A stretch of DNA of 64,000 nucleotides from Synergistaceae bacterium. GTDB lineage: Bacteria; Synergistota; Synergistia; Synergistales; Aminobacteriaceae. Below, one piece after another: positions 5,229 through 43,660 of the stretch. The translations under genes were made by a program, and so were the position numbers. The notes beneath the pieces were generated by a model. That model ran no database searches, was not told the DNA's origin, and saw only the letters and a list, made by a program, of their open reading frames with translations. The stretch is taken from the NCBI GenBank assembly GCA_017470485.1, contig JAFUYQ010000015.1:1-64000 (forward strand), in the 5' to 3' direction. The stretch's first letter is position 1; every line of letters starts with the position of its first letter.

Positions 5229-6487
5229 TGATTAAACTGTTATTTGTTAGAAGGTTTATGCCGCTGTTTCTGACGCAGTTTTTGGGGGCGTTCAACGATA
5301 ACTTCTTCAAGAGCGCGTTAATGATGTTAATCACTTACCGTCTCGGTGATGCCGCCGGTGTTGATTCGAGAATACTGGTCAACGCCGCCGCAGGAGTATT
5401 CATTCTTCCGTTCTTTGTTTTTGCGCCGACAGCAAGCGACTTGGCCGACAAATACGACCGTTCCGACTTGATGAGATGGGTGAAGTTCGCCGAAATTGTA
5501 GTGATGTCGGGAGCGGCACTGGGGTTCTGGCTCGGCAACGTTTGGCTTTTGATGGCTGTGCTATTTCTGATGGGGGCGCAGTCAGCGTTCTTCAGTCCGG
5601 CGAAATACAGCATACTTCCTCAGCATTTGCGCGAGGACGAATTAATCGCAGGAAACGGATTGATTCAAATGGGAACGTACTTGGCGATTTTGACGGGGAC
5701 GATAGCCGGAGGATTAATGATTTTGAGGGACAACGGTATATATTGGGTAGGCGGTCTTGCGGTAACGATAGCCGCGCTTGGCTGGCTCTTCTCAATGTTC
5801 ATACCCCCAACGAAACCCATTGCCCCGAATCGAACAGTGTCATTCAGAATCGTCAAGAGAACCGCTGAGATGTTCAGGGAAGTTTACCCGATGAGGCGTG
5901 TATTCAGCTCAATGCTGGCAATATCATGGTTCTGGCTTGTGGGGTCAGTGTTCCTCGCTCAGTTCCCGACGTATTCAAGAATGATTCTGGGAGCTGACGA
6001 GAGCGTAGCAACTAGCTTCCTTGCGATATTCTCATGCGGTATCGGGATAGGCTCAATGTTCTGCGACTCGCTACTCAAAGGCAAGGTGTCATCAAAATAT
6101 GTTCCTGCCGCTGCCTACGGAATAGCGATAGCGAGCGTCCTGCTGTGGTACGTCAGCAACCGTCCGCCCGTCCCAGAAGGTACACCGATAGTGGGGGCTT
6201 GGGAATTTTTCACGAGGCCTGAGAACTTTATGATAACGGCGTGTCTTTTTGTGATAGCGTTCTGCGGAGGATTGTATATAGTTCCGCTTTACGCCGTAAT
6301 GCAGACTGAGGCCGGCGATAAAGTCTCAGGGGTCATAGCCTGCTCAAACATAACCGACTCGCTTTTCATGGCCGCCGCTGCTGTCGGAGCGAGTATTCTG
6401 ATTTCAATGGGCATTAGTATTCCTCAGTTGTTCCTGACTATGGGGCCGACTACGTTTATTGTGGGACTGCTGGTCGGACTGCTTTAG
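5228..6487 (+). CDS. MFS transporter, LplT (lysophospholipid transporter)-like
   Basis: A 419-residue polytopic membrane protein of the major facilitator superfamily with about 12 hydrophobic segments. The opening FLTQFLGAFNDNFFKSALMM and the later QSAFFSPAKYSILPQ are hallmarks of the LplT / Aas-N-terminal group, which flips lysophospholipids inward for re-acylation. The acyltransferase domain often fused to this module is absent here, so the partner enzyme must be elsewhere if the assignment holds. The start overlaps the cysS stop (TAATG). MFS assignment is firm; the substrate is inferred from the family. Confidence 0.85.
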   Translation: MIKLLFVRRFMPLFLTQFLGAFNDNFFKSALMMLITYRLGDAAGVDSRILVNAAAGVFILPFFVFAPTASDLADKYDRSDLMRWVKFAEIVVMSGAALGFWLGNVWLLMAVLFLMGAQSAFFSPAKYSILPQHLREDELIAGNGLIQMGTYLAILTGTIAGGLMILRDNGIYWVGGLAVTIAALGWLFSMFIPPTKPIAPNRTVSFRIVKRTAEMFREVYPMRRVFSSMLAISWFWLVGSVFLAQFPTYSRMILGADESVATSFLAIFSCGIGIGSMFCDSLLKGKVSSKYVPAAAYGIAIASVLLWYVSNRPPVPEGTPIVGAWEFFTRPENFMITACLFVIAFCGGLYIVPLYAVMQTEAGDKVSGVIACSNITDSLFMAAAAVGASILISMGISIPQLFLTMGPTTFIVGLLVGLL

Positions 6488-6499
6488 AGGGCGTGAATT

Positions 6500-7616
6500 A
6501 TGCCTGAGAGAAAACCTGCATTCACAATTAACGATGTAATTAAGGAAATAGAAGAAGCCACGCTGATGGACGATTATTTCATGCGTGCTTTCTTTGAGGA
6601 TAATATTTCAGGAACTCAAATAGTACTCCGAATAATTATGGACAAGCCTGACTTGATAGTTATGTCAGTGAGTGTTCAGGAAGATTTCAGGGGATTTGAC
6701 GATTCGCACGGAGTAAGGTTTGATGTTTACGCTGTTGACTCTGAAAACCGCCAGTACGATATAGAGTTTCAGAACAAGCCTGAAGGTGCCAGCCCTCAAC
6801 GAGCTGATTTTAACAGTGCAATGCTGACAGTAAGGACGCTGAAGAAATCGGAGAATTATTCTGTTCTGTCTGAGCGCGAACGTGTTGTAATCTTCATCAC
6901 AAAGACAGATGTGCTTAAAGGCGGACTTCCCATTTACAGGGTTGAGCGCGTAATCAGGGAGACAGGAAACCCGTTTAATGACGGTACACGGATAATTTAT
7001 GTCAACACCTCGCACAAAGATACCGGTACTGCACTAGGGAAACTGGTTCATGATTTCAGGTGCGGCAATCTTCGGAAATTGTATTATACTGAACTGGCTG
7101 AACAAGCAGATAACGCTAGAAAGAAAGCTGAACAACAGCTAGAAAGAAGTTATATCTTAAAGAAGGTAGGTGAAAATCGTTACAGAGAGTTAAGCAAATC
7201 AACTTGTGTTTATAATTTATATATTGGCTAAAATGTTTCCAGCTTCTGAAGCGAGAACCAAGAGGGAAGTGAATATACCCGTACGTTAGCGGGGAATTTA
7301 AGCCTTTGGAGCGTCATATCAAACGTGAGTAGCGGTTACATAGCGAAAGCGGGCGCGATGAATGAGGAAGGGAGCAGAAAAGTTAATATTAGGCGATAAG
7401 CTGTTAATTTTTTATAAGTCTTCTGTAACGGTAAATAGAGTGTCAGCTATTGAAGCAATGAAGGAATACGAGCGGGCTGAAGGAAAAGCCGAAATGCAGA
7501 AAAGTATCGCAACAGGCTTGATAAAACTCGGTCAAATAGCGTTTGAAGACATCGCAAAGGTCTGCCATCTTACATTGGAACAGGTCAAAAATCTTGCGGC
7601 AACAGTAAACGCATAA
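6500..7616 (+). pseudogene. Rpn/PD-(D/E)XK-family nuclease, interrupted by an IS605-type relic
   Basis: The first part (from ATG 6500, frame ending at 7231) is an Rpn-family nuclease: MDDYFMRAFFEDN, DVYAVDSENRQYDIEFQNK with the family's D...ExQ catalytic motif, and KLVHDFRCGN. After about residue 220 the sequence loses similarity. The usual C-terminal tail reappears in another frame near 7445-7616 (EAMKEYERAEGKAEMQKSIA ... LTLEQVKNLAATVNA). Between the two halves lies the 3' end of a tnpB gene. So this is one gene split by an insertion, not two genes. The core with the catalytic motif is still translatable, so residual activity is possible. It follows the transporter by 12 nt. Confidence 0.78.
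7170..7430 (+). mobile_element. IS605-type relic: tnpB 3' end with omega-RNA-like sequence
   Basis: Between the two halves of the Rpn gene, 7250-7399 is open in the frame LAGNLSLWSVISNVSSGYIA ... KAGAMNEEGSRKVNIRR, ending at TAA 7397. This resembles the C-terminus of IS200/IS605-family TnpB proteins of a lineage different from the intact copy at 60003. Its DNA (CCTTTGGAGCG, then GATGAATGAGGAAG further on) shares the scaffold pattern of the two other IS605-type ends in this window. A short GCTTC-T-GAAGC hairpin at 7242-7252 could be left over from an element end. Outer limits are approximate because neither flank is sharp. Confidence 0.6.
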
Positions 7617-7749
7617 CCGTAAAATACGCAGAACGGCTCTCCGCTGAAATAACTTAACGGGGAGCTGTTCTTCTCATGAACGCACTGAAATAAAATTTCA
7701 CAAAGGAGGTAAAATATTTACGGACACTCACGAACTGGAGGAATAATTT

Positions 7750-8202
7750 TTGCCTTACACGATTAAAGACATCTCGGAACTCACAGGATTACCGCCCTCA
7801 ACACTGAGATATTACGATAAACAGGGATTACTCCCCAATCTCAGGCGCGATGGGAACAATATACGAATATTCACTGACGAAGATTACAGACATTTACGAT
7901 TAATCGACTGCCTCAAAAAATCAGGACTGTCGATTAAGGATATAAGAAATTTCATAGATATGGCCGGTCAGGGAGACAAAGCACTAACAGGAAGGCTCGA
8001 AATTTTCAGGAAAAGAAGGGAAATCCTGAAGCAGGAACTTTCTGACTTGCAGACCGTTCTTGATGTTATAGAGTATAAATGCTGGTACTATGAGCAGGCA
8101 TGTGATGCAGGCACTGAGTCAGCCGTAAAAAATTTACCTGACTCAGACCTCCCCGAACAATTCAGAAAGGCAAAGAAACATCTTTACTGCACTAAACGCT
8201 AA
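7750..8202 (+). CDS. MerR-family transcriptional regulator
   Basis: A 150-residue regulator with the MerR winged helix at the N-terminus (YTIKDISELTGLPPSTLRYYDKQGLLP), then RLIDCLKKSGLSIKDIRNFI and a dimerisation coiled coil (about residues 85-120). The C-terminal effector region is short and holds Cys at CWYYEQACDAG and a final Cys, without a clear metal-site pattern. MerR proteins with this Tyr-Tyr-Asp pattern often regulate stress or redox genes. The start is TTG 7750, chosen because GGAGG lies 8-9 nt upstream. It is convergent with the nitroreductase gene, whose end overlaps it by 4 nt. The target is unknown. Confidence 0.88.
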   Translation: MPYTIKDISELTGLPPSTLRYYDKQGLLPNLRRDGNNIRIFTDEDYRHLRLIDCLKKSGLSIKDIRNFIDMAGQGDKALTGRLEIFRKRREILKQELSDLQTVLDVIEYKCWYYEQACDAGTESAVKNLPDSDLPEQFRKAKKHLYCTKR

Positions 8203-8777
8203 TCAATAATCCTGAATCTTCCTTCATGAATCTTCTTGGGGGAAGGTTCAGCACCGTCAATATAACCCAGAAGGACAAAACATCTTGCCGTATACCCTTC
8301 AGGAATATGCCAGTCCTCAAGAATTTTTCTGCCCTCAGGATTATCGAATGTCTCCTCGCCCCTCGCTATTATGCACGATGAAATACCCAATGATTTCGCC
8401 GCAAGCGTCATGTTCTCGGCACAGCAGAAAGCATCAGCAATACTGTAAAGAAATTTCTCCGGCCCGAACACTGCACACACTGACGGCGCACCGTAAAAGC
8501 CGCTCTTTATCGAATGGTCATCAATAATACTCGGCTGTTCATCAGATACATACGCTCCAAGAAGTGCTGACCTGTCGAATTTAGCTATGTTGAGTTTTCC
8601 CAGTTTCTCGGCGAGTTCAGCATTGTTTACGCCGATGATGATACTTCCCTGACGGCCTCCTGCATTAGGCGCACGAAGTCCTGCCTCTATGACCGTCTCA
8701 AGGTCAGCCCGTGAAATCTGCTTGCTCTGATACTTCCTTACTGAATGTCTCGTTCTTATTGCTTCCATTACGTCCAT
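8199..8777 (-). CDS. Nitroreductase-family protein of the RiPP cassette
   Basis: A 192-residue FMN-dependent nitroreductase-family enzyme. The N-terminal phosphate/FMN motif is RTRHSVRKYQSKQIS, followed by LRAPNAGGRQ and the C-terminal ARCFVLLGYIDG. I chose ATG 8777 because AAGGAG precedes it and the family motif begins about 10 residues in; upstream in-frame codons run into the radical SAM gene. It starts two bases after the radical SAM stop, so the two are translationally coupled. In this setting it may oxidise or reduce the modified peptide, as nitroreductase relatives do in other RiPP pathways, but a general flavin reductase is possible. Confidence 0.85.
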   Translation of the reverse strand: MDVMEAIRTRHSVRKYQSKQISRADLETVIEAGLRAPNAGGRQGSIIIGVNNAELAEKLGKLNIAKFDRSALLGAYVSDEQPSIIDDHSIKSGFYGAPSVCAVFGPEKFLYSIADAFCCAENMTLAAKSLGISSCIIARGEETFDNPEGRKILEDWHIPEGYTARCFVLLGYIDGAEPSPKKIHEGRFRIID

Positions 8778-8779
8778 GA

Positions 8780-9808
8780 TTAAAACTCCTTCCAGCATTG
8801 CGGATCTTCCGCGTAAAAATTTCCGTGTACTCCTTTTGCAACGGCAGGACACCCTCTGCAATAAGGCAGCAGCTCGCACTTTGAGCATTTCGCAAAGCTA
8901 CCGTATTCCCTGTAAGCCTCCATTTCATTCAGCCATAAGTCTGAGAGTTTATCGGTTAGAGCGTTTCCGACTCTGCTGTCCTTCACGCGCCTGCAGACAT
9001 AGACATCGCCCGACGGAAGAATAGTGAGATGGCCTTTTCCGCAGTTGCAGCCGGAATATATTTTTCCTTTTTCTGCGTCATCGGGAATATTGAATCTTCC
9101 TGCCTCGTAATCGTAGAGAGTCCAGAGATGGTCTTTGCGGTCAAAATATGTCCTGCACCCTTCAGCCTCATACTTCCTGAAAATTTTATCGCAAGTTCCG
9201 AGAAATTCGCGGTATTCTGACGGGGTTACGGCTGTTTCCATTCCAGAACCAGAAGGGCAGTACCTCGCAAATGAAAACACTTCCGCTTCGTGTTCGACAA
9301 CAACATCAATAACCTCTGGTATTTCGTGAATGTTCAGGCTAGAGACTGTTGACATTATCACTGAGCATATACCTGCGTCATTAACGGGCTTGATTTTAGC
9401 GAGTGTTTCATCATACGAGCCGGGCTTCCTGAAGAAGTCATGAGTCTCTCTGAGGCCGTCGATTGAAAGCTGGTACTTCTCGCACCCTAAAGCCTTTAGC
9501 CTCCTGCATGTATCGAAGTCAATGTGAAATGGATTGCCGAGTATCGAGAAATAAATACCGCTGTTTCTGAAAGTCTCAAGAAGTTCCCAGAAATTCGGGT
9601 GAAGTATCGGGTCGCCTCCCGTAATATAGAAGTATGGAATGCGTCCGAACGTCTCGCAGAAATCAATACAGTTCCTGAAGACCGTTTGAAATTCCTCGCG
9701 GCTCATTGACTGCGGAACATGTGAATTTCCGCCTGAATATATGTAACAGTGCTTGCACCTCTGGTCGCAGATGTCAGTGATGTGCCACTGAAATGAAAAG
9801 TAACGCAT
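8780..9808 (-). CDS. Radical SAM/SPASM peptide maturase
   Basis: A 342-residue radical SAM enzyme. The 4Fe-4S/SAM motif CDQRCKHCY lies at residues 14-22, and YITGGDPILHP is the SAM-binding GGEP equivalent. The C-terminal SPASM domain has many Cys residues (GCNCG, VCRRV, CSKCELLPYCRGC, QCWKEF), which is typical of enzymes that bind auxiliary Fe-S clusters and modify ribosomal peptides. Immediately upstream lies a 37-residue Cys-repeat peptide gene and downstream a nitroreductase. From memory this resembles the NCBIfam 'ACGX system' radical SAM group; that name must be checked. The likely reaction is C-S or C-C crosslink formation on the repeats, which is inference. Confidence 0.9.
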   Translation of the reverse strand: MRYFSFQWHITDICDQRCKHCYIYSGGNSHVPQSMSREEFQTVFRNCIDFCETFGRIPYFYITGGDPILHPNFWELLETFRNSGIYFSILGNPFHIDFDTCRRLKALGCEKYQLSIDGLRETHDFFRKPGSYDETLAKIKPVNDAGICSVIMSTVSSLNIHEIPEVIDVVVEHEAEVFSFARYCPSGSGMETAVTPSEYREFLGTCDKIFRKYEAEGCRTYFDRKDHLWTLYDYEAGRFNIPDDAEKGKIYSGCNCGKGHLTILPSGDVYVCRRVKDSRVGNALTDKLSDLWLNEMEAYREYGSFAKCSKCELLPYCRGCPAVAKGVHGNFYAEDPQCWKEF

Positions 9809-22742: not shown

Positions 22743-23309
22743 TTACATTCCGATTGATTTTTCAACCGGCCTCAATGCCAATATTGTCTCACTTATTACA
22801 TCATCGAGCGGCATATTCATTTTTTCCGCGCCCTGCTTAATGATGTCTCTGTTCACGCCCCTTGCGAATGCTTTATCCTTCCATTTCTTTTTGACGGACT
22901 TGAGTTCGAGGTCAGCGAGTGATTTAGATGGCCTTACAAGTCCGGCAGTGATTATAAGGCCGGTAAGCTCGTCAATCGTGAAGAGAGTGCGTTCAAGATT
23001 ATTTGACGGTTCAACGTCAGTGCATATTCCGAACCCGTGAGACTGGACAGCGTGAATAATACTCTCATCGACACCGGCATTTCTGAGAATGTCAGGGGCA
23101 ACATGGCAGTGTGTTTCGGGCTTTGATGAAGTTTCCTCCCAGTCAATGTCGTGAAGTATCCCGACGACTCCCCAGAGTTCAGGGTCTTCGCCGTAGAGAT
23201 TTGCGAAGTGCCTCATTGCTGCCTCGACAGCGGCGGCGTGATGAATATGGGATTCTTCATTGTTGTGCTGCCTGAGAAGTTCATAGGCTTGTTCTCTTGT
23301 AGGTATCAT
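22743..23309 (-). CDS. HD-domain (HDIG-type) phosphohydrolase
   Basis: A 188-residue single-domain HD protein. Metal ligands are visible in HIHHAAAVEAAMRHFA, ILHDIDWEE, THCHVAPDIL and HAVQSH. Such small HDIG proteins are metal-dependent phosphohydrolases of unknown substrate, widespread in anaerobes. It lies 28 nt upstream of the response regulator on the same strand and could belong to that operon. Confidence 0.83.
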   Translation of the reverse strand: MIPTREQAYELLRQHNNEESHIHHAAAVEAAMRHFANLYGEDPELWGVVGILHDIDWEETSSKPETHCHVAPDILRNAGVDESIIHAVQSHGFGICTDVEPSNNLERTLFTIDELTGLIITAGLVRPSKSLADLELKSVKKKWKDKAFARGVNRDIIKQGAEKMNMPLDDVISETILALRPVEKSIGM

Positions 23310-23402
23310 AAAAAATTCTCCCCCTGAAAAAGTTTCCGTGTAATTATATCTTGACGGGGCGATATTTTCGTATCGTATAAGGCTGAATTTTCGCGGCTGT
23401 GC

Positions 23403-23439
23403 AAAAAAAATCCTTCCCGTAAAATTTCAGAGAAGGATT
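23403..23439 (-). terminator. Terminator of the rny-ymdB operon
   Basis: In the minus-strand sense AATCCTTC and GAAGGATT form an 8-bp stem followed by eight T residues, about 35 nt after the ymdB stop. Confidence 0.82.
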
Positions 23440-23471
23440 CATATTCTGCCTTAATGCACCCCTAAAGGAGT

Positions 23472-24272
23472 TTACGTTAAACCTTCAGCCGGAAGCTGAA
23501 CCCTCGTAATTCCTGAGGCAAGCCCCGACTTGTCGTCAATCTCAACTATCACGCCGTTGAACGCCGCACCGTCTTCGCTCGCTTCAAACTTGCACGGAAG
23601 ACCGTCAATGAATTTCGGCATTACGGATTCGTAGCTCACTCCTAAAATTCCGTCATGGCCGCCCGTCATTCCTGCGTCAGAAATGTATGCCGTACCCTTC
23701 GGGAAAATTCTCTCGTCCGCCGTCTGAACATGCGTATGAGTCCCTACAACTGCGCTGACCCTGCCGTCAAGGTAATAAGCCATTGCCTGTTTCTCGCTCG
23801 TGGCCTCCGCGTGGAAATCAACGAATATCGGAAGGTTATCGCCGCCCTCAGCTTTAAGCTCGTCAATCAGTCTGTCGGCGCACCAAAACGGAGAATCTAT
23901 CGGAGGCATGAACACCTGACCTTCAAGGTTAATGATTCCGAGTTTCTTCCCTTTGCGTTCGATTATCCCATGACCTCTGCCGGGACATGACGGAGGATAA
24001 TTGGCCGGTCTGAAAACTCTCGTTTCAGCGTCAAGAACCGTGAAAAATAAAGGCTTATCCCAGATGTGATTGCCCGAAGTCATAGCGTCAACGCCGAGTT
24101 CAATGAAGCTGTCGAAAATTCTGTCGGTCATTCCTTTTCCGTGAGCGGCATTCTCGCAGTTGATGAGAACGAAATCAAAACTTCCGTATTCGCGCTTCAA
24201 TATGGGAAGTGAATACTCAAGAGTCTTTCTTCCCGTATTCCATGCGACATCGCCCGAAAATAATATTCTCAT
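23472..24272 (-). CDS. ymdB: YmdB-family metallophosphoesterase (2',3'-cAMP/cGMP phosphodiesterase)
   Basis: A 266-residue calcineurin-like phosphoesterase of the TIGR00282/YmdB family. Metal-site motifs are RILFSGDVAWNTGR, NCENAAHG, TSGNHIWD, FVDFHAEATSEK and VVGTHTHVQTADERI. In Bacillus YmdB hydrolyses 2',3'-cyclic nucleotides and is linked with RNase Y. Here it starts inside the rny stop codon (ATGA), the conserved rny-ymdB pair. Confidence 0.93.
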   Translation of the reverse strand: MRILFSGDVAWNTGRKTLEYSLPILKREYGSFDFVLINCENAAHGKGMTDRIFDSFIELGVDAMTSGNHIWDKPLFFTVLDAETRVFRPANYPPSCPGRGHGIIERKGKKLGIINLEGQVFMPPIDSPFWCADRLIDELKAEGGDNLPIFVDFHAEATSEKQAMAYYLDGRVSAVVGTHTHVQTADERIFPKGTAYISDAGMTGGHDGILGVSYESVMPKFIDGLPCKFEASEDGAAFNGVIVEIDDKSGLASGITRVQLPAEGLT

Positions 24273-25801
24273 TTCGCGAACTCCGATGCCTTAGTCTCGC
24301 GCGAAACGCTGACTTTTATCTGCCCGGGATATTTCAGTTCGGCCTCGACTCTTCTTGCGATGTCGAACGCGAGTTTATGAACAGTTCCGTCATCGGTCTT
24401 GTCGGAGCTGAGAACTACGCGGACTTCACGGCCTGCCTGCATAGCGTAAGCCTTAGTAACTCCGCTGAAGCTCTGAGCGATTTCCTCAAGTTTTTCGAGC
24501 CTCTTTATGTAAGCGTCAAGGCTCTCGCGTCTTGCGCCCGGTCTTGAGGCACTTATAGCGTCGGCAACGGAAACGATGACTTCATAGACTGAACTGACTT
24601 CGAGATTGTCATGATGTGAGGCGATACAGCTTACGATTTCGGGGCGTTCGCCGAGTCTCCGCGCGAGGTCTGCGCCGATTTCGGCGTGAGGGCCTTCGGT
24701 CTGGCGGTCGATAGCTTTTCCGATGTCGTGAAGGAGGCCTGCTCTTCTCGCGAGTTCCTCATCAAGTCCGAGTTCGGCGGCAATGATTCCGGCGATCTGA
24801 GCGACTTCCATGCTGTGAGCAAGAACGTTCTGGCCGTAGCTGAATCTGAATTTGAGCTGTCCGATTGTGCGGACAAGTTCATTGCTCATGTTCTTGATTC
24901 CGAGTTCGAGTATTACGTTCTCGCCCTCGCTAATCATTTCCTCGTCAATATCCCTTGCGGCTTTCTCGATTAGCTCCTCGATTCTCGCCGGGTGAATGCG
25001 TCCGTCAACGACAAGGCGTTCCATAGCGCGTCTGGCAATCTCGCGTCTTATCGGGTCAAAACTTGAGAGGGTTACGGCTTCGGGGGTGTCGTCAATGATT
25101 AAGTCAACGCCTGTGAGGCTCTCGAACGTTCTGATGTTACGTCCTTCGCGCCCGATTATGCGTCCTTTCATTTCTTCTGAGGGGAGCGGAACGACACTTA
25201 TGCTTGATTCTCCTGCGCTTTCTGAGGCACACCGCTGCATTGCGCCGATGATGATGTCGCGGGCTTTTCTTTCTGCTTCACGGACGTATTGTTCTTCAAG
25301 CTCTTTGAGACGAAGACCTAAGAAGTGTTTAGCGTCGTCCTCAGTTCTTCTGATGAGGACTTCCTGAGCTTCTTCCTTAGTCATGGAGGCGATTTCCTGA
25401 AGTTTAACTTCCTGCTGCTGAATAGCATTTTCGAGGTCGGAGCGTCTTTTTTCGAGTTCTTCGTGCTTTGATTTCAGCTCGTCTTCTCTGCGCGTAACGC
25501 GGTCTAATTTCTTGTCGATATTTTCTTCCTTCTGCTCCAGCTTCCGTTCAGTGCGCTGAATTTCGATTCTGCGTTCCTTGATGTCCTTCTGAGCTTCCTG
25601 ACGAAGACGGTTTACTTCTTCGCGTGTCTCGGAGATTTTGGCCTGTTTAATGCGTTCGGAACTGTCTTCAGCTTCTTTGAGCATATCGGAGATCTGAGTT
25701 TTCACGCCGTTGACTCTGGAATTGTCCCATGCTCTCAGAACCGCGAAACTTAATCCGGAGCCGGCAATGAATGAGAATAATGCCAACACAACAAACTGCA
25801 T
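24269..25801 (-). CDS. rny: Ribonuclease Y
   Basis: A 510-residue endoribonuclease that starts mRNA decay at the membrane. An N-terminal membrane helix (MQFVVLALFSFIAGSGLSFA) is followed by a long coiled coil (to about residue 180), a KH domain (GRIIGREGRNIRTFESLTGV) and an HD domain (GLLHDIGKAIDRQ). ATG 25801 was chosen because the membrane helix starts at once and AAAGGA lies upstream. Length and order match the family. Confidence 0.95.
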   Translation of the reverse strand: MQFVVLALFSFIAGSGLSFAVLRAWDNSRVNGVKTQISDMLKEAEDSSERIKQAKISETREEVNRLRQEAQKDIKERRIEIQRTERKLEQKEENIDKKLDRVTRREDELKSKHEELEKRRSDLENAIQQQEVKLQEIASMTKEEAQEVLIRRTEDDAKHFLGLRLKELEEQYVREAERKARDIIIGAMQRCASESAGESSISVVPLPSEEMKGRIIGREGRNIRTFESLTGVDLIIDDTPEAVTLSSFDPIRREIARRAMERLVVDGRIHPARIEELIEKAARDIDEEMISEGENVILELGIKNMSNELVRTIGQLKFRFSYGQNVLAHSMEVAQIAGIIAAELGLDEELARRAGLLHDIGKAIDRQTEGPHAEIGADLARRLGERPEIVSCIASHHDNLEVSSVYEVIVSVADAISASRPGARRESLDAYIKRLEKLEEIAQSFSGVTKAYAMQAGREVRVVLSSDKTDDGTVHKLAFDIARRVEAELKYPGQIKVSVSRETKASEFAK

Positions 25802-25951
25802 AATATTTCTTTTATCCTTTCTATAAACATCAATAATGAAATTTATTCCCAAAATAAGAAGGGGTGCTGATTTCAATCTCGTTATTGGGCAGATATAAAG
25901 AAATTCTACATTTTTACGGGGCGTTTAACAAGCCGGAAAGTTAAAATTTAT

Positions 25952-27049
25952 TCATGAGCGTCTGTAAATTTCAGTGAACATGTCAACAGCTGTCTCCAGA
26001 ATATTATCATTGAAGTCGTAATTACCCGTGTGAATCGCAGGATAGTCCCCGCCGTTCCCGATGTAGAAAATCGCTCCGTGTATCTGCTTCGTGTAACGTC
26101 CGAAATCCTCTGAGGCTCTTATCGGTTCGGCCATGTCAATGACATCTAAGCCGAGTGATTTTGCAGAAGCCCTTACGGTTTCGACGCACTGGGAATCGCT
26201 TGAGGTATCGGGGAAATAATCGCTTGCATTCTTCGTAAGTGTCATTGAACGCGAGGCGGCTAACTCCTCAGCTCTAGTTATAATTCCGTTGAAGGCTTTC
26301 CGCATTTCGGACTCTGTTTCGGCACGGACAGTCAATGAGATTTCACCCTCGCCCGGCGAAATTCCGAAGTTCTTTCCGCCGACGTTAATATTTACGATTG
26401 TGCAGAAGATTCCGTCCTTCATGGCCTCGATTTCTCTCACTAGTTCCGCGATTGCATAGGCCGGATTGATACCTTTTTCGGGTTCGCTTGCGTGAGAAGT
26501 TCTGCCGGTGAATCTCAAAGTTATACCGGCTGAAGCGAACTGACAGACTCCATTTTTGACAACTATGCTTTTCTCAGGCCAGCCGCTCCAGTTGTGGAAT
26601 GCGTAAATCTCGCTGATGCTGCGTTCGCGGAGGAGGCTTGAACATTCACGCGCACCGGCACCGGTTTCTTCGGCGTGCTGAAAGATGAGGTAGACCGAGC
26701 GGTTCACGGGCATTGATTCGAGTTCGAGGGCGAGTCCGCATAATGCTGAACTGTGTCCGTCATGGCCGCACTTGTGGGAGACGTTGGGATTCTTAGAGGC
26801 GTAAGGCAGCGAGATTGCCTCGTCCATCGGCAGAGCGTCCATGTCTGCGCGGAATGCTATTGCCTTTGTCCCCTCAACGTAGCGCGAGGCGTAGAACCAT
26901 TTTCCGCAGTCGATAACGGCAAGTCTCGTGTTGGCCTCGATGAAGTTCATGAGTTTACGTTTTGTTGAGGCTTCACAGCCTGAGAGTTCAGGATATTCGT
27001 GAAGCTCATGGCGCAGTTCGATAATCTTCTGTAAATTTTCTTTATTCAT
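25952..27049 (-). CDS. M20-family metallo-amidohydrolase
   Basis: A 365-residue zinc-dependent peptidase/amidohydrolase of the M20 (hippurate hydrolase-like) family. Zinc-site motifs are FRADMDALPMDE, SHKCGHDGHSSAL, HAEETGAGA and, in the C-terminus, IHTGNYDFND. It likely removes acyl groups from N-acyl amino acids. The start overlaps the stop of the chromate-transporter gene by 4 nt, so it is part of that operon. Confidence 0.9.
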   Translation of the reverse strand: MNKENLQKIIELRHELHEYPELSGCEASTKRKLMNFIEANTRLAVIDCGKWFYASRYVEGTKAIAFRADMDALPMDEAISLPYASKNPNVSHKCGHDGHSSALCGLALELESMPVNRSVYLIFQHAEETGAGARECSSLLRERSISEIYAFHNWSGWPEKSIVVKNGVCQFASAGITLRFTGRTSHASEPEKGINPAYAIAELVREIEAMKDGIFCTIVNINVGGKNFGISPGEGEISLTVRAETESEMRKAFNGIITRAEELAASRSMTLTKNASDYFPDTSSDSQCVETVRASAKSLGLDVIDMAEPIRASEDFGRYTKQIHGAIFYIGNGGDYPAIHTGNYDFNDNILETAVDMFTEIYRRS

Positions 27050-27591
27050 AGTCCCATCACCCCAAATAAAATTATTCCGGCAGCAGCACTCAGCATTAAC
27101 ACTTTAGGAATCGACATCTTGAATTTCAGAAGCAGAACCAAATCCGCAATTCCCAATAACGCCGAAGGTATATTAATTCTTCCTGCCTCAGCGTAATTCA
27201 CAAGCACTAAGTCAACAACTACTCCGGCCACCATTCCGACACACGCAGGACGAACGCCCGTCATAATTTCGCCGAGCCTCTTGTTTTCCCTAAAGTGGTC
27301 AAAGAATACCGCCGCCACCGCACACAGTGTATATGTCGGACTTAATGCCCCCATGTTAGCAATGAATGCTCCGGCGAGTCCTGCCGCCCTCATTCCTGCG
27401 AATGTCGCGCAGTTCAACCCAAGAGGGCCGGGAGTCATCTCGGCAATCGCTACAATGTCCGAAACTTCATGAGCAGTCATCCAGCCGTGAGAGATCATTT
27501 CACCTGAAATCAACGGAATCATTGAAAGCCCTCCGAAACTCGTGAAGCCTATCTTTACGAAGCTCCAGAATAATTCAAGCAGTAATATCAT
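27046..27591 (-). CDS. Chromate transporter half-protein (CHR family), second subunit
   Basis: A 181-residue membrane protein, one half of a two-gene short-chain CHR transporter. The family motif appears as FVKIGFTSFGGLSMIPLI and EMTPGPLGLNCATFAG. I chose ATG 27591 (MILLLELFWSF) since upstream in-frame sequence belongs to the neighbouring gene. It overlaps the preceding half by 4 nt and the M20 gene by 4 nt. Substrate may be chromate or another anion. Confidence 0.88.
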   Translation of the reverse strand: MILLLELFWSFVKIGFTSFGGLSMIPLISGEMISHGWMTAHEVSDIVAIAEMTPGPLGLNCATFAGMRAAGLAGAFIANMGALSPTYTLCAVAAVFFDHFRENKRLGEIMTGVRPACVGMVAGVVVDLVLVNYAEAGRINIPSALLGIADLVLLLKFKMSIPKVLMLSAAAGIILFGVMGL

Positions 27592-38955: not shown

Positions 38956-39026
38956 AATTTCGACCAATCATTTTCATCAACAGAATCGGTAATCGTGGTG
39001 ATGTCTACAAAGGAGGTAAAAACTAA

Positions 39027-39263
39027 TTGAACGCAATTAAAGAAAGAATTTTCGGGGCGGTTACTGTTATGAACAACTCTTCTGCCTTAAAGCTATGGGA
39101 GTTTATCATGAACGAATTTGCTCATGCGTCTGACTGGGACAGTATACCAGAAGCAGAACCTGATGAATTTGACTTGCAGATGTTGAAAGGAATCGAGCAG
39201 GATAAAGATTGCCACGAATTTGTCTCGGCTGATGAAGCTGAAAAAATTTTAGGTATTGTATAA
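39027..39263 (+). CDS. Small acidic antitoxin-like protein, 78 residues
   Basis: Starts at TTG 39027 behind AAAGGAGG. N-terminal helices (AIKERIFGAVTVMNNSSALK, LWEFIMNEF) are followed by an acidic segment (WDSIPEAEPDEFDLQMLKGI) and CHEFVSADEAEKILGI. This is the style of small antitoxin-like proteins common in Firmicutes and Synergistota, where they usually precede a RelE-like or other toxin. No canonical toxin follows; the next gene, 21 nt on, is a coiled-coil protein. It opens the operon that runs to 43660, so it may regulate that operon. Confidence 0.72.
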   Translation: MNAIKERIFGAVTVMNNSSALKLWEFIMNEFAHASDWDSIPEAEPDEFDLQMLKGIEQDKDCHEFVSADEAEKILGIV

Positions 39264-39284
39264 TTACCGAAAGGAGCTGAAATT

Positions 39285-40475
39285 ATGGCAAAAATAAAAT
39301 TCAACCTAAACTTCGGCGGCGAACAGATCAGAACTCTCGATGATCTGCGCGATAACTTTTCCATTGAGGACGTTCTTGACGTTTACAACAATGGTCTACT
39401 CGTCAAATGGCTTGATGTTCACAATCACAAGAACGAACTCGAACAAGTCAAAGCTGTTCAGGCTACTGACGCTCGCGGCATTCTGACTGAGCTAATCAAA
39501 ATTTTCGGCATTTCTGATGACCCTTCTGAAATTGAGGACAGCCTCTCTGTTCTCGACTACTTGGAGGAGCGCAAGAAGGTTCACGAAGATATGAAAGCTC
39601 ACGGCATTTCCGACCATGAGAAACTCAGAAAGGAACGCGATGAATTAGCCCGGCAGGTTGAGGAGCTGAAAGAACTTCTTGAAGCAAAAGCCCCTGAAGC
39701 TGAAATCCACGAAGAAGCCCCCAAGCCAGCAAAGAAAAGCTATGATGACCTTGTGCAGGAAATCATCGACAATCATCAGGACTTGAACCACATCTACGAC
39801 TGCCTCGACGCTATCACTACCGATTATCCCGACATTCTCAAGGAAAAATATTCGGAGTTGTTCGACAGGCTATATGCAGAAGCTGCTCACGCGCTTTATG
39901 CACTTTTCGCTCATCACGCAACAAGGCCATATTACGTGTTGAGTGACGGAGAATTATTGCTTGATAGGGAAAGACGTAGATATTTATACCCTCCTATTGA
40001 GAATTGTTTTTATGGACGAGATTTTCAAAAAGGCACTCTGAATAATGAATGGGAAGATTGGAAAATAAAGCTGGACGGATATGAACAAATTGAAGCTCAC
40101 AGACTCTTGCCATCTGTTCTCGAAAAATTACGCTTTATCAACACACTCAATAAAGTTTCGATAGGGATATTTGGAACAAGCGAGTTTCAGGTAGTAAAGC
40201 ACCCATACTTGAGAGTTTTTAGTGATGAAGCACACTACGGATGTGAAGAATTAAGTAAATGGCGCGTTATTGAGACTGCTGACAAAAAGTTTATGCTTTT
40301 TCACGCATACCCAACTATTTGGGGAAATACTGCAGGTACGTACACTCATCATCTTGTTTACGTTCTACAAGATTTTCGCATTGCATTTCCTGTGTTGAAT
40401 GGCATAGACATACAACCTACAAAATATAAAGGACACTGTTTCTACTCTGGTTTCTGTTACATGGAGGCAAGGTAA
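39285..40475 (+). CDS. Modular coiled-coil protein with variable C-terminus, 396 residues
   Basis: The N-terminal module (MAKIKFNLNFGGEQIRTLDD, LRDNFSIEDVLDVYNN, GLLVKWLDVHNH ... ILTELIKIFGIS) covers residues 1-80. From memory it resembles a short N-terminal module seen on diverse multidomain proteins of Selenomonas-like and Synergistota genomes. A coiled coil (about 95-135) and a helical segment (150-205) follow. The last 190 residues are unrecognised, contain many aromatic residues, and are encoded by distinctly more A/T-rich DNA than the first half. No membrane segment or signal peptide. AAAGGAG precedes the ATG. Confidence 0.72.
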   Translation: MAKIKFNLNFGGEQIRTLDDLRDNFSIEDVLDVYNNGLLVKWLDVHNHKNELEQVKAVQATDARGILTELIKIFGISDDPSEIEDSLSVLDYLEERKKVHEDMKAHGISDHEKLRKERDELARQVEELKELLEAKAPEAEIHEEAPKPAKKSYDDLVQEIIDNHQDLNHIYDCLDAITTDYPDILKEKYSELFDRLYAEAAHALYALFAHHATRPYYVLSDGELLLDRERRRYLYPPIENCFYGRDFQKGTLNNEWEDWKIKLDGYEQIEAHRLLPSVLEKLRFINTLNKVSIGIFGTSEFQVVKHPYLRVFSDEAHYGCEELSKWRVIETADKKFMLFHAYPTIWGNTAGTYTHHLVYVLQDFRIAFPVLNGIDIQPTKYKGHCFYSGFCYMEAR

Positions 40476-40496
40476 TAAATAATGGAGGTGAATAAA

Positions 40497-40724
40497 ATGA
40501 CAAACTTCAAAAACGATAAAGAACAGTTTGAACGAAAAGCGAAGTTTTACACCCAAAATTACAGAAAAATGAGAGCAAGATTTTATGCGCTTGCGCATAA
40601 AGTTTCTGAGATAGCGGAAAGACCTTCAATAACGCGAGAAGACCGAGTTGCCCTCAATGAAGCTATTTTGTCAGCTTCAGGTATGAAAACTAGAGAATAC
40701 CATCACCATGCGGCAAGCAACTAA
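40497..40724 (+). CDS. Small basic helical protein, 75 residues
   Basis: An unrecognised helical protein beginning MTNFKNDKEQFERKAKFYTQ. I chose ATG 40497 because GGAGGTG sits about 8 nt before it; an in-frame ATG at 40482 would place its own codons over that ribosome site. It is A/T-rich like the end of the preceding gene. Its 3' end overlaps the AAA ATPase gene by 17 nt, so the two are coupled. Confidence 0.68.
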   Translation: MTNFKNDKEQFERKAKFYTQNYRKMRARFYALAHKVSEIAERPSITREDRVALNEAILSASGMKTREYHHHAASN

Positions 40725-42234
40725 AAAACTTTTAGCGTCATATCTCGACTCGCTCTGCCCGATTCTCTACATCAACCATTCGGATTTTGCTGACGTTGAC
40801 GCGGAATTAACACGCCTTGCTGAACACGATATGCGCTTCATCGAGTTCAATAACGCTCTTGGGGCTTTGAACTTTGAGGACAAGCACCAGTTACAGCAGT
40901 GGGATCTCGCGGAATTTCTTAACGCCGTTATGGACGAGGGGTTTGACGAGGAACACGAACTTGTCATTATCCTTAAAGATGTTCACGAAAGCATGAACGA
41001 TCCGAAAGTTGTCGCCCTCCTGCGGCGTATCGCTGAAATGACGCTTGAGCGTGATGATTACCGAGCGAAAGTCATCATTATTGCTTCAAATGTTGTCATT
41101 CCGTCTGAGCTTGAAAATTTCATTACCCTTATGGACGTTCCTTTGCCTGATGATGAGGAGATAAGGGACTGTATTCACAGTTTTGCTGAAGATGTCGCTG
41201 TCGATATCGGTGAAAAAGAATTTGAAGAGCTTGTGTTTTCCCTTAAAGGTTTAAGCGCGTTCCAGATAAAACAGGTGCTTTCTCTCGCTTATCAGGGTAA
41301 CGGACGGCTTGACGCTTCTGACAGGAAATTTATTCTTAGCGAAAAAGAACAGGTCATCAAAAAATCAGGCATTCTTGAGATGATGAATTTCAAGGAAACT
41401 ATTGATGACATTGGCGGTCTTGACAGGCTGAAAAGCTGGCTGGATAGGAAAGCTAAAATTTTCTCCTCCCTCGATAAAGCTATTAAGTTCGGCGTTGACG
41501 TTCCAAGCGGCATTTTGATTCTCGGTATGCCCGGCTGCGGTAAAAGCCTCGCCGCTAAAGCTACTTCCACTCTCTTCAAAGTTCCGTTAATACGTCTTGA
41601 TGTCGGTCGTCTCATGGGTAAATATGTCGGTGAATCTGAAGGCAATATGCGCCGTGCATTGAAACTCTCGGAAACTGTAAGCCCCTGCGTTTTGTGGATT
41701 GATGAGATTGAGAAGGCTTTTGCCGGCATTGGCGGCGGTTATGGTGAAGTTGCTACTCGACTGTTCGGGCATTTCCTGACCTGGATGCAGGAAAAAGAAA
41801 GCACAGTTTTTATCGTTGCGACTGCTAATGACATCTCTAAACTTCCGCCGGAATTTTTACGCAAGGGACGCTTTGATGAATTATTCTTCGTTGACCTCCC
41901 GACTGAAAGAGAACGCAGAAAAATTCTCGAAATACATTTAAGGAAGCGCGGAAAGCTCAACAACAGAATTAACCTTGACACATTGAGCAAGAAAACTAAA
42001 GGCTTCAACGGCGCGGATCTTGAGGGAATTGTTAAGGACGCTATCGAAACAGCCTTTATTGACGGGACTGAAACTATCACAACTGAGCTTTTACTCAAGA
42101 GCTTTGAGGAGGCAAAATCAATCTCTGTAATTCAAAAGGAAAAAATAGAAGCCCTGCGTAAAGATTTGAAGAAATATGACATTAAGCCGGCAAGTTCTGA
42201 GGCAAGAGAGTCAACTGATGATGGCCGAAGCTGA
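40708..42234 (+). CDS. Ycf46-like AAA ATPase
   Basis: A 508-residue ATPase. The N-terminal 230 residues look like a degenerate P-loop domain lacking Walker A (ILYINHSDFADVDAELTRLA, LVIILKDVHE). The active AAA domain follows: IDDIGGLDRLKSWLDRK, Walker A GMPGCGKS (273-280), pore-like MGKYVGESEGNMRRAL, Walker B VLWIDEIEKAF (D332, E333), ATANDISKLPPEFLRKGRFD with the arginine finger. This layout is that of Ycf46/YjoB-type AAA proteins, possible unfoldases or chaperones. It is coupled to its neighbours by overlaps of 17 nt and about 14 nt. Confidence 0.88.
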   Translation: MRQATKKLLASYLDSLCPILYINHSDFADVDAELTRLAEHDMRFIEFNNALGALNFEDKHQLQQWDLAEFLNAVMDEGFDEEHELVIILKDVHESMNDPKVVALLRRIAEMTLERDDYRAKVIIIASNVVIPSELENFITLMDVPLPDDEEIRDCIHSFAEDVAVDIGEKEFEELVFSLKGLSAFQIKQVLSLAYQGNGRLDASDRKFILSEKEQVIKKSGILEMMNFKETIDDIGGLDRLKSWLDRKAKIFSSLDKAIKFGVDVPSGILILGMPGCGKSLAAKATSTLFKVPLIRLDVGRLMGKYVGESEGNMRRALKLSETVSPCVLWIDEIEKAFAGIGGGYGEVATRLFGHFLTWMQEKESTVFIVATANDISKLPPEFLRKGRFDELFFVDLPTERERRKILEIHLRKRGKLNNRINLDTLSKKTKGFNGADLEGIVKDAIETAFIDGTETITTELLLKSFEEAKSISVIQKEKIEALRKDLKKYDIKPASSEARESTDDGRS

Positions 42235-43660
42235 AGTCATTACGCGTGAAGAAGGTCAACAAATAGCCTCGACTATCTCAGATTTTATGAGCGGTTACGC
42301 GGAGAAATCTGAAAGCGTCTCTGACAGTGAATGGCTTTTGACGCAATTCAAGGAGTCAATGCCTGAGAAAAACGAAGCGGAAATCACACAAATACGCGAT
42401 GAAATCATTGACGGTATTCAATCTCAAGAGGCCGCTAAAGAATCATTACATTCAGCGTTATCACAATGCCGTAGTAAAGAAAGCTGGTTCGCTCAGGAAA
42501 TGAGGAAAGCTGCTTCGGGCATGAGTTCCATTGAGGCAGCGACATATCTTCAAAGCCTTGATGAGGCTGTTAATACCGCAAATCAACAGCTTATAGACAC
42601 TATCACAACTAAGAGCGGAGCTGTAAGCAAAAATCAAAATCTCGACGGTTTCATTGCGGAAGATTATCACGCTCAAACTTTTAATCTGAACGCCGCCGCG
42701 AGAGGAAGCCATTATCGTGCGCGTGTCCTCAAACCTAATGGCAAAAGCTACACAAAAAATTCTGTTGATATTGTCATTGATAACCTCGACACAGGGAGAA
42801 TTTCCCGAAGGTATCAAGCTAAATACGGCGCGACAATCGAACGTTCGCGGGCAATGTATAAAGCTGGAAATTATCGAGGACAGCGTCTATTAACCCATGA
42901 AGAGCGGATTGTCGCTCCAGACGGTACAACGAGTAATATCCTAAGCAAGCAACAGGCTAAAGAATTACAGGAAAAGGCTCAAAGCGGAGAATGGCAGAAT
43001 CTCAACTGGAATGAATATGCCATGAAAGATATTGCCGCTGGGATCGCGAAGAATGTTGGAATAGCCGGAGCGCAAGGATTGTTAATCGGAACAGGATTTG
43101 AACTCGCTAGACAAATTTACGGCGATAAGGGAATTGACAGTGAAAAACTAATTGAGACAGGTTTGGAAACTGGAGCGGATTTTGCGATGAAAGTCGCTGT
43201 CGCTGGAGGATTAAAAGTAGCTTCCGAGAAGGGATTTATAAAATTTATCCCTAAAGACACTCCCACAAATGTCTTTACAACAATAGCTTTTGTAACCGTT
43301 GAAAATGTAAAAGTTCTTAGTCATGTGGCAATTGGAGAACTTACGCCGATTGAGGGCTTTGAAAAAATCGAGCAAGTTGCTACTTCATCAGTTTGCGGTT
43401 TAGCTTCAGCAGCAAAAGGAGCCACAATAGGCTCTAAAGTCCTCTCATGTTTTGGCCCTGCAGGAGCGGCTATCGGAGGGTTCGCAGGAGGCACAATCGG
43501 TTATATGGCAGGGTCAGGAGTCGCGACAGCGGTTGTGAAAGGCTATCAAAAAGTTCGCAGTGTTATTGTTGAGCATGTCGTGAAGCCTATAGTCAATACC
43601 GCAAAAAGAGCTTGGGAAAACGCAAAATCATTCGTAAGCAATATTTTCTCATGGCTTTAG
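42221..43660 (+). CDS. Nuclease-like (D...QxK) protein with glycine-zipper membrane region
   Basis: A 479-residue protein of no named family. Residues 1-150 are helical (EEGQQIASTISDFMSGYAEK). Residues 180-205 (SVDIVIDNLDTGRISRRYQA then KYGATIERS) contain D183, Q199 and K201, like a PD-(D/E)XK active site with Q in place of E. Residues about 265-330 and 375-430 are Gly/Ala-rich hydrophobic segments (GIAGAQGLLIGTGFELA; GAAIGGFAGGTIGYMAG), probable membrane or pore helices. ATG 42221 or 42218 is chosen; both overlap the AAA gene end. Homologous layout to the protein at 15432. Confidence 0.75.
   Translation: MAEAEVITREEGQQIASTISDFMSGYAEKSESVSDSEWLLTQFKESMPEKNEAEITQIRDEIIDGIQSQEAAKESLHSALSQCRSKESWFAQEMRKAASGMSSIEAATYLQSLDEAVNTANQQLIDTITTKSGAVSKNQNLDGFIAEDYHAQTFNLNAAARGSHYRARVLKPNGKSYTKNSVDIVIDNLDTGRISRRYQAKYGATIERSRAMYKAGNYRGQRLLTHEERIVAPDGTTSNILSKQQAKELQEKAQSGEWQNLNWNEYAMKDIAAGIAKNVGIAGAQGLLIGTGFELARQIYGDKGIDSEKLIETGLETGADFAMKVAVAGGLKVASEKGFIKFIPKDTPTNVFTTIAFVTVENVKVLSHVAIGELTPIEGFEKIEQVATSSVCGLASAAKGATIGSKVLSCFGPAGAAIGGFAGGTIGYMAGSGVATAVVKGYQKVRSVIVEHVVKPIVNTAKRAWENAKSFVSNIFSWL

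Follow-up and report, generated by a model that had tools for sequence, protein, structure and literature searches.

The stretch of DNA analysed in the present study, hereafter the window, comprises 64,000 nucleotides of a Synergistaceae bacterium (GenBank assembly GCA_017470485.1, contig JAFUYQ010000015.1, positions 1 to 64,000). A preliminary description of this DNA had placed five open reading frames between the housekeeping genes folP and gyrA and read them as one coupled unit. All five were present at this location (Table 1), and the flanking genes were identified by Pfam matches (folP, PF00809, 1.5e-59; gyrA, PF00521, 3.8e-159). In same-genus relatives (G006, G011, G020, G007, G009, and G002), folP and gyrA are separated by ~70-150 bp. 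The block in the window is an accessory insertion between two housekeeping genes. The same gap is filled in genomes G031, G004, and G030 (L130, L131, and L135) by a gene on the opposite strand, which we read as glycosyltransferase-like; thus, the gap takes different cargo across relatives. The genes g3 and AAA overlap by 17 nt and the genes AAA and effector by 14 nt, as had been described. An upstream ATG at 42176 offers an alternative start for the effector, which would then comprise 494 aa. We focused on three of the five genes, encoding a putative adaptor (g2), an AAA ATPase, and a putative effector, which are hereafter called the triad.

Table 1. Features of the window locus.
Feature	Position	Strand	Remarks
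RelE/ParE-like toxin C-terminal remnant, IFINRIGNRGDVYKGGKN*	38970..39026	+	outside the system; agrees in DNA and peptide with the terminal part of the intact toxin beside the g1 paralog
g1, orphan antitoxin, 78 aa, TTG start	39027..39263	+	bystander; 78% identical paralog behind an intact toxin
g2, putative adaptor/sensor, 396 aa	39285..40475	+	g2N (~residues 1-90), coiled coil, variable C-terminal part
g3, small basic protein, 80 aa	40482..40724	+	lineage-specific add-on; sole homolog found in G018
Ycf46/CDC48-like AAA ATPase, 508 aa	40708..42234	+	Pfam matches and motifs; tree clade 100/99
Putative effector, 479 aa	42221..43660	+	helical domain 1-135; optional QxK domain ~136-255; glycine-zipper part ~260-479
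QxK (PD-(D/E)xK-like) domain core in the effector	42638..42892	+	E147, D183, Q199, K201, Y218, and Q221, invariant in 13 sequences

The adaptor, the AAA, and the effector were found together in 20 loci across Synergistota, Bacillota, and Cyanobacteria whose neighbourhoods were read. These loci were the window, L024, L143, L034, L030, L161, L025 (Exiguobacterium plasmid), L026 (Microcystis plasmid), L145, L146, L233, L235, L237, L238, L240, L241, L243, L246, L248, and L250. Only part of the loci was read in the class of G180 (20 regions), many of the assemblies are drafts, and locus counts are not counts of independent events. Among 151 related genomes, the effector and the AAA each occurred in eight and both occurred in five, against an expected 0.4 (hypergeometric p = 5e-6). 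The preliminary description had joined these two genes, and effector homologs were indeed repeatedly found with an AAA gene, both in these relatives and in the 20 triads. At L146, the g2N domain, which is the conserved first ~90 residues of the adaptor, and the AAA are fused in a single 830-aa protein; this is the strongest single hint that the two work together. The order and strand of the triad genes were variable, with the AAA and effector genes convergent in G022, and the linkage is therefore more than the simple inheritance of one operon. Anoxybacillus vitaminiphilus carries a minimal operon (L024 7522-11479) with the same gene order and overlapping genes, consisting of a 288-aa adaptor, an AAA 59% identical to that of the window, and an effector 45% identical, as well as a second, diverged triad (L143) elsewhere in its genome. 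A g2N gene was found in 10 of 188 Synergistota genomes, a narrow g2N profile matched 4 of 398 Bacillota genomes, and a broader profile matched 36 of 300 genomes in the class of G180. A plasmid search with the L143 adaptor gave no match, and the adaptor at L034 was split by a frameshift. Collectively, g2, the AAA, and the effector constitute the module, and their genes travel together; the triad is probably a mobile three-component conflict module.

The window AAA matched PF00004 (3.7e-29) and AAA_lid_3 (6.3e-9), in agreement with its earlier description as an AAA ATPase. As read from the sequence, its N-terminal half has no P-loop, and its C-terminal half carries a Walker A motif (GMPGCGKS), a Walker B motif (VLWIDEIEKA), and an arginine finger (RKGRFDE), together with the AAA lid. 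Judged by sequence, the plastid and cyanobacterial Ycf46-type AAAs likewise combine a degenerate N-terminal AAA-like part with an active C-terminal AAA domain. Unlike them, the window AAA is encoded in an operon with an adaptor and an effector, outside a photosynthesis context. The window AAA was also similar to a defence AAA, IetA (PADLOC, 8.4e-29), which pairs with the subtilisin-like IetS in the IetAS system. However, it scored only 90.9 bits with the NCBIfam IetA model, against a cut-off of 510, and its partners are different, with no subtilisin or protease gene among them. In an IQ-TREE phylogeny of 38 AAAs, the 20 triad AAAs and two AAAs from CoCoNuT systems formed one clade (support 100/99), in which a long branch (2.2 changes per column) leads to the CoCoNuT AAAs and neighbours the subclade of the window (91/83). 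Viral, satellite-phage, and baseplate-linked AAAs fell outside this clade.

A phage or tail role for the AAA was considered and rejected. Narrow profiles (E up to 10) found neither an effector nor a g2N gene close to the AAA relatives of 49 viral contigs, and effector profile scans of viral contigs gave no match. The viral relatives included in the tree grouped with the tail-linked Treponema AAA, in another clade.

The preliminary description had called g2 a modular coiled-coil protein, and this view fits the loci well, since the N-terminal domain is kept and the C-terminal part is swapped among them. The C-terminal parts included a coiled coil plus an unknown domain, ankyrin repeats (L037), a CobW GTPase (L026), Sel1/TPR repeats (L145, L248, and L250), and DUF6273 (L235). 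No description of the g2 adaptor family was found in the literature searched; the stand-alone triad with this adaptor family, often in tandem arrays, seems to be undescribed. The tandem arrays of g2N genes, with no AAA nearby, contained two to nine genes of different lengths (G755:C2, G686:C19, G867:C5, and G761:C1). The largest had nine matches in ~9 kb (G816:C245:9401-18732; L231 5378-15453), and its near-identical g2N N-termini suggest recent duplication. It resembles a receptor or adaptor repertoire.

The N-terminal helical part and the C-terminal glycine-zipper part of the effector were common to all triads. The middle QxK domain was present in nine of the 20 and absent from 11, and it is an insertion relative to the effectors of ~350 aa. 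Because it occurred in just nine triads, the glycine-zipper part was taken as the constant effector and the QxK domain as an optional addition. The nuclease as the constant core of the system, as earlier proposed, was rejected: the triads that lack it include that of G022, whose AAA is the sister of the window AAA. The window effector contains 11 small-xxxG-xxx-small motifs against 3.6 in shuffled sequences, and none of 500 shuffles reached 11. A Gly-zipper_Omp match was obtained at L024.

To characterise the QxK domain, we compared 13 sequences, namely those of the window, G018, Anoxybacillus (two), Klebsiella, E. coli, a faecal contig with an unverified phage label, G567, and five genomes of the class of G180 (median identity 53%, minimum 37%). 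The D183 residue and the QxK motif at 199-201 were present as previously described, and E147, D183, Q199, and K201 were all among the 20 of 90 positions that were invariant (chance 0.002); Y218 and Q221 were also invariant. The domain thus contains the conserved E, D, and (E/Q)xK active-site set of PD-(D/E)xK or REase-fold nucleases. Previous studies have reported that D-[EQ]xK is the classical active-site signature in Tox-REases, with motifs GxxxE, IxD, ExK, and Q in Tox-REase-7 and GxxxQ, DD, and QxK in Tox-REase-8 (Zhang et al. 2012, PMC3482391), and that the Mrr-like domain of Type ISP enzymes usually carries PD-QXK (PMC3874165). The QxK domain shares the set GxxxE ... D ... QxK ... Q with the Tox-REase-7/-8 clades of polymorphic toxins. 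In contrast to these clades, it gave no significant Pfam match, lies inside the protein, and is combined with a glycine-zipper tail and an AAA partner. AlphaFold2 models built from two-row alignments had a pLDDT of 37 for the whole effector and 46 for the domain, and in the latter the order of elements was alpha-beta-beta-beta-alpha, with the key residues on the expected elements. A Foldseek search returned nothing significant, and the best E of 0.07 (ERI2 exonuclease) was deemed meaningless. Pfam and PDB profile searches were negative, as was hhalign against 26 Mrr_cat domains. The homolog in CoCoNuTs has been modelled with a PD-(D/E)xK (REase) fold and labelled inactivated (Bell et al. 2024, PMC11090510); the strict conservation of catalytic-type residues indicates that this label should be tested and not assumed. 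These results suggested that the window effector carries a putative nuclease-like domain.

Two further genes were noted in this context. A 352-aa protein of a different build is encoded next to one g2N gene and one HNH-like gene, without an AAA (L144 7065-8120, minus strand; G295:C4). It contains GFKGFVAE...QVKAGY (GFxxE and QxK) ahead of a hydrophobic alanine/glycine-rich tail, and it may represent a similarly designed effector of independent origin. In G018, a 447-aa gene that follows the QxK effector downstream (L031 2566-3906; G018:C397) showed weak matches, both below the cut-off, to a cold-shock domain (3.2e-4) and HEPN_Swt1 (1.4e-3), and it is a possible RNA-targeting add-on.

According to the preliminary description, no such combination of genes was known. 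However, a cassette that pairs an AAA with a glycine-zipper/REase-fold protein has already been described by Bell et al. (2024, PMC11090510) for the extended Type III-A CoCoNuTs; besides that study, nothing joining SpoVK and the glycine zipper was found in the literature searched. We recovered the CoCoNuT-type arrangement in E. coli ZF34 as well as on plasmids of Klebsiella and Enterobacter. The SpoVK/CDC48-like AAA of these systems is homologous to the window AAA (38% identical). The CoCoNuT effector homolog, whose gene adjoins the AAA gene, is 37% identical to the window effector overall and 55% in the QxK domain. As in the SpoVK-subtype CoCoNuT, the window has a SpoVK/CDC48-like AAA adjacent to a glycine-zipper protein. 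In contrast, the window AAA has no C-terminal leucine-rich-repeat and biotin-carrier-like domains: the Klebsiella AAA of 715 aa has a Biotin_lipoyl match at 637-705, whereas the window AAA stops at 508 aa and has no such match. The window also differs in its g2 adaptor and in its surroundings, where the VWA pair, the CARF nuclease, TerY-P, the helicase, CnuH/CnuE, and the McrB-/McrC-like core genes of the CoCoNuT operon are missing and the flanks are folP and gyrA. A DUF2357 search of the window's genome gave no match, and the positive control was likewise silent. Because the core genes and the C-terminal extension of the AAA are missing, the locus in the window does not qualify as a CoCoNuT. 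Most likely, the window triad is related to the AAA/glycine-zipper immune cassette of extended Type III-A CoCoNuTs but stands alone.

The loci of several relatives lie close to defence genes, a proximity that the preliminary description had proposed to check. In E. coli ZF34, BREX-1 (pglX, pglZ, and brxL) is followed downstream by the series VWA-effector-AAA-CARF nuclease-TerY-P-CoCoNuT. At this locus (L167; NZ_CP047461 2134786-2166507), an IS element separates the first VWA gene from the effector gene; the effector-AAA pair was present in 3 of 5426 complete E. coli genomes at the sensitivity used. The effector adjoins McrB/McrC in Exiguobacterium and a BglII-type endonuclease and DNA methylase in G018. 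WYL regulators, which have been tied to defence regulation (PMC4012209), were found near four triads (L024, L143, L238, and L246).

The remaining genes, g1 and g3, bear on the proposal that all five genes form a toxin-antitoxin-like system, with g1 as the antitoxin to the effector. Its antitoxin-like appearance and its orientation, shared with the rest, would suit this role. However, the same genome contains a g1 paralog (G000:C1:23090) directly behind an intact 82-aa RelE/ParE-like toxin (L128 4842-5090; PF05016, 1.6e-4, slightly below the cut-off). In the window, ~18 last codons of such a toxin are left before g1, which therefore does not form a type II RelE/ParE pair there. Because its paralog trails an intact toxin and the last toxin codons abut g1 in the window, g1 is an antitoxin orphaned by the decay of its RelE/ParE-like partner, with no part in the triad, and the other triad loci examined showed no g1. 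The only g3 homolog found follows g2 in G018 (L159 1786-2007; phmmer 5.6e-23), and g3 was absent from the other triads read. The G018 locus (L159 1786-2060; G018:C187) is a decayed copy of the window type, in which g2 and g3 are retained while the AAA has shrunk to its first codons plus a few internal ones; such decay is typical of dispensable genes. The five-gene unit was therefore rejected, and the toxin-antitoxin-like role for g1, already contradicted by these data, is highly improbable. The preliminary description was right that g1 looks like an antitoxin and that three of the genes (g2, AAA, and effector) are strongly coupled; g1 is a remnant of another system and g3 is confined to one lineage.

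Collectively, we consider that the triad would be an intracellular conflict or defence module, to which we assign a probability of roughly 0.6, with the individual steps rated lower; its function would probably be anti-phage abortive infection. In the proposed mechanism, the adaptor would dock on the AAA through g2N and would sense a cue of infection or damage with its swapped C-terminal part. The AAA hexamer, in which, as in Ycf46, one active ATPase ring would sit on a degenerate AAA-like domain, would hold the effector soluble and inactive and, upon a signal, would remodel or release it. The glycine-zipper tail may then insert into or damage the inner membrane. In the QxK versions, including that of the window, the nuclease domain may also cut nucleic acid, and the infected cell would die or stop growing. 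This reading is based on the 20 triads, the L146 fusion, the AAA clade (100/99), the co-occurrence (p = 5e-6), the accessory insertion, the decayed copy, the defence contexts, and the invariant catalytic-type residues. The parts of a conflict system earlier recognised here thus held as a coupled sensor-like gene, an AAA, and a putative nuclease/membrane effector, kept as a unit with defence contexts in relatives; the nuclease core and the five-gene unit did not. Several observations weigh against this reading. The window triad lies between housekeeping genes, outside any defence island, and no PADLOC or NCBIfam model for a complete known system fits its genes. Adaptors stand alone in G054, G073, and about half of the loci fetched in the class of G180. 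The nuclease fold was not confirmed by AlphaFold2 (pLDDT 37-46), Foldseek, Pfam/PDB profiles, and hhalign. The hydropathy of the zipper region is modest, with no 19-residue stretch reaching Kyte-Doolittle 1.4 in the window effector; the insertion of this protein into a membrane is plausible, and classical transmembrane helices are therefore unsupported. The glycine-zipper membrane segments described earlier are consequently borne out by the motif excess and not as transmembrane helices of that type.

The glycine-zipper tail, the Tox-REase-like motif set (PMC3482391), and the swapped domains could also suggest an interbacterial toxin, that is, a bacteriocin-like or polymorphic effector exported or assembled via the AAA, with the g2 proteins as immunity or delivery factors. 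The tandem g2 arrays resemble immunity arrays, and a related AAA in Treponema adjoins a baseplate gene. However, the loci read contained no recognisable secretion domain, gene for export, or dedicated immunity gene, and what is swapped is the C-terminus of the adaptor and the central part of the effector rather than a toxin C-terminus. The phage and tail AAAs belong to a separate clade, and the WYL, BREX, and CoCoNuT contexts favour intracellular defence; we therefore regard an exported toxin as unlikely. A quality-control or stress machine without immunity as such has a similarly low probability. Ycf46/CDC48-type AAAs are remodellers as a rule, and in such a machine the AAA would extract or refold membrane proteins, the glycine-zipper protein would anchor it, and the g2 proteins would act as substrate adaptors, whose diversity (ankyrin, Sel1/TPR, and CobW) does resemble that of substrate receptors. 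This role fits poorly with the patchy presence of g2N, the decay, the plasmid carriage, the defence contexts, and the conservation of nuclease-type residues.

Beyond the conflict or defence module itself, we put forward, as a reading less likely than not, that the triad is a widespread undescribed immune system. Its g2N receptors would be interchangeable (arrays of up to nine) and would serve one CDC48-like motor and a common membrane-inserting effector, and CoCoNuTs would have borrowed the motor and the effector. If this is true, a CDC48-like motor would be the switch of a bacterial cell-death system in which the receptor domain is swapped and amplified while the motor and effector are fixed. 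The puzzling gene pair of CoCoNuTs would be explained as a borrowed stand-alone cassette, many 'hypothetical proteins' bearing the g2N domain would gain a family home, and the activity of the 'inactivated' REase domain in the CoCoNuT protein would be a question reopened. Both the E. coli form and the minimal operon of Anoxybacillus, with its three genes in ~4 kb, lend themselves to direct tests in laboratory strains.

In addition, small GTPases (MMR_HSR1; IIGP-like or DUF697 matches) were observed near two triads (L238 1271-2254 and L146 7723-9015) and are possible membrane-associated partners. In the window's genome, the intact RelE/ParE-like toxin/antitoxin pair with the g1 paralog (L128 4842-5327) is followed by genes for 649-aa and 699-aa proteins (5485-9551; G000:C1 ~22840-27550). 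The N-terminus of the 699-aa protein resembles, in our reading, a TIR domain, and this region may be a defence island.

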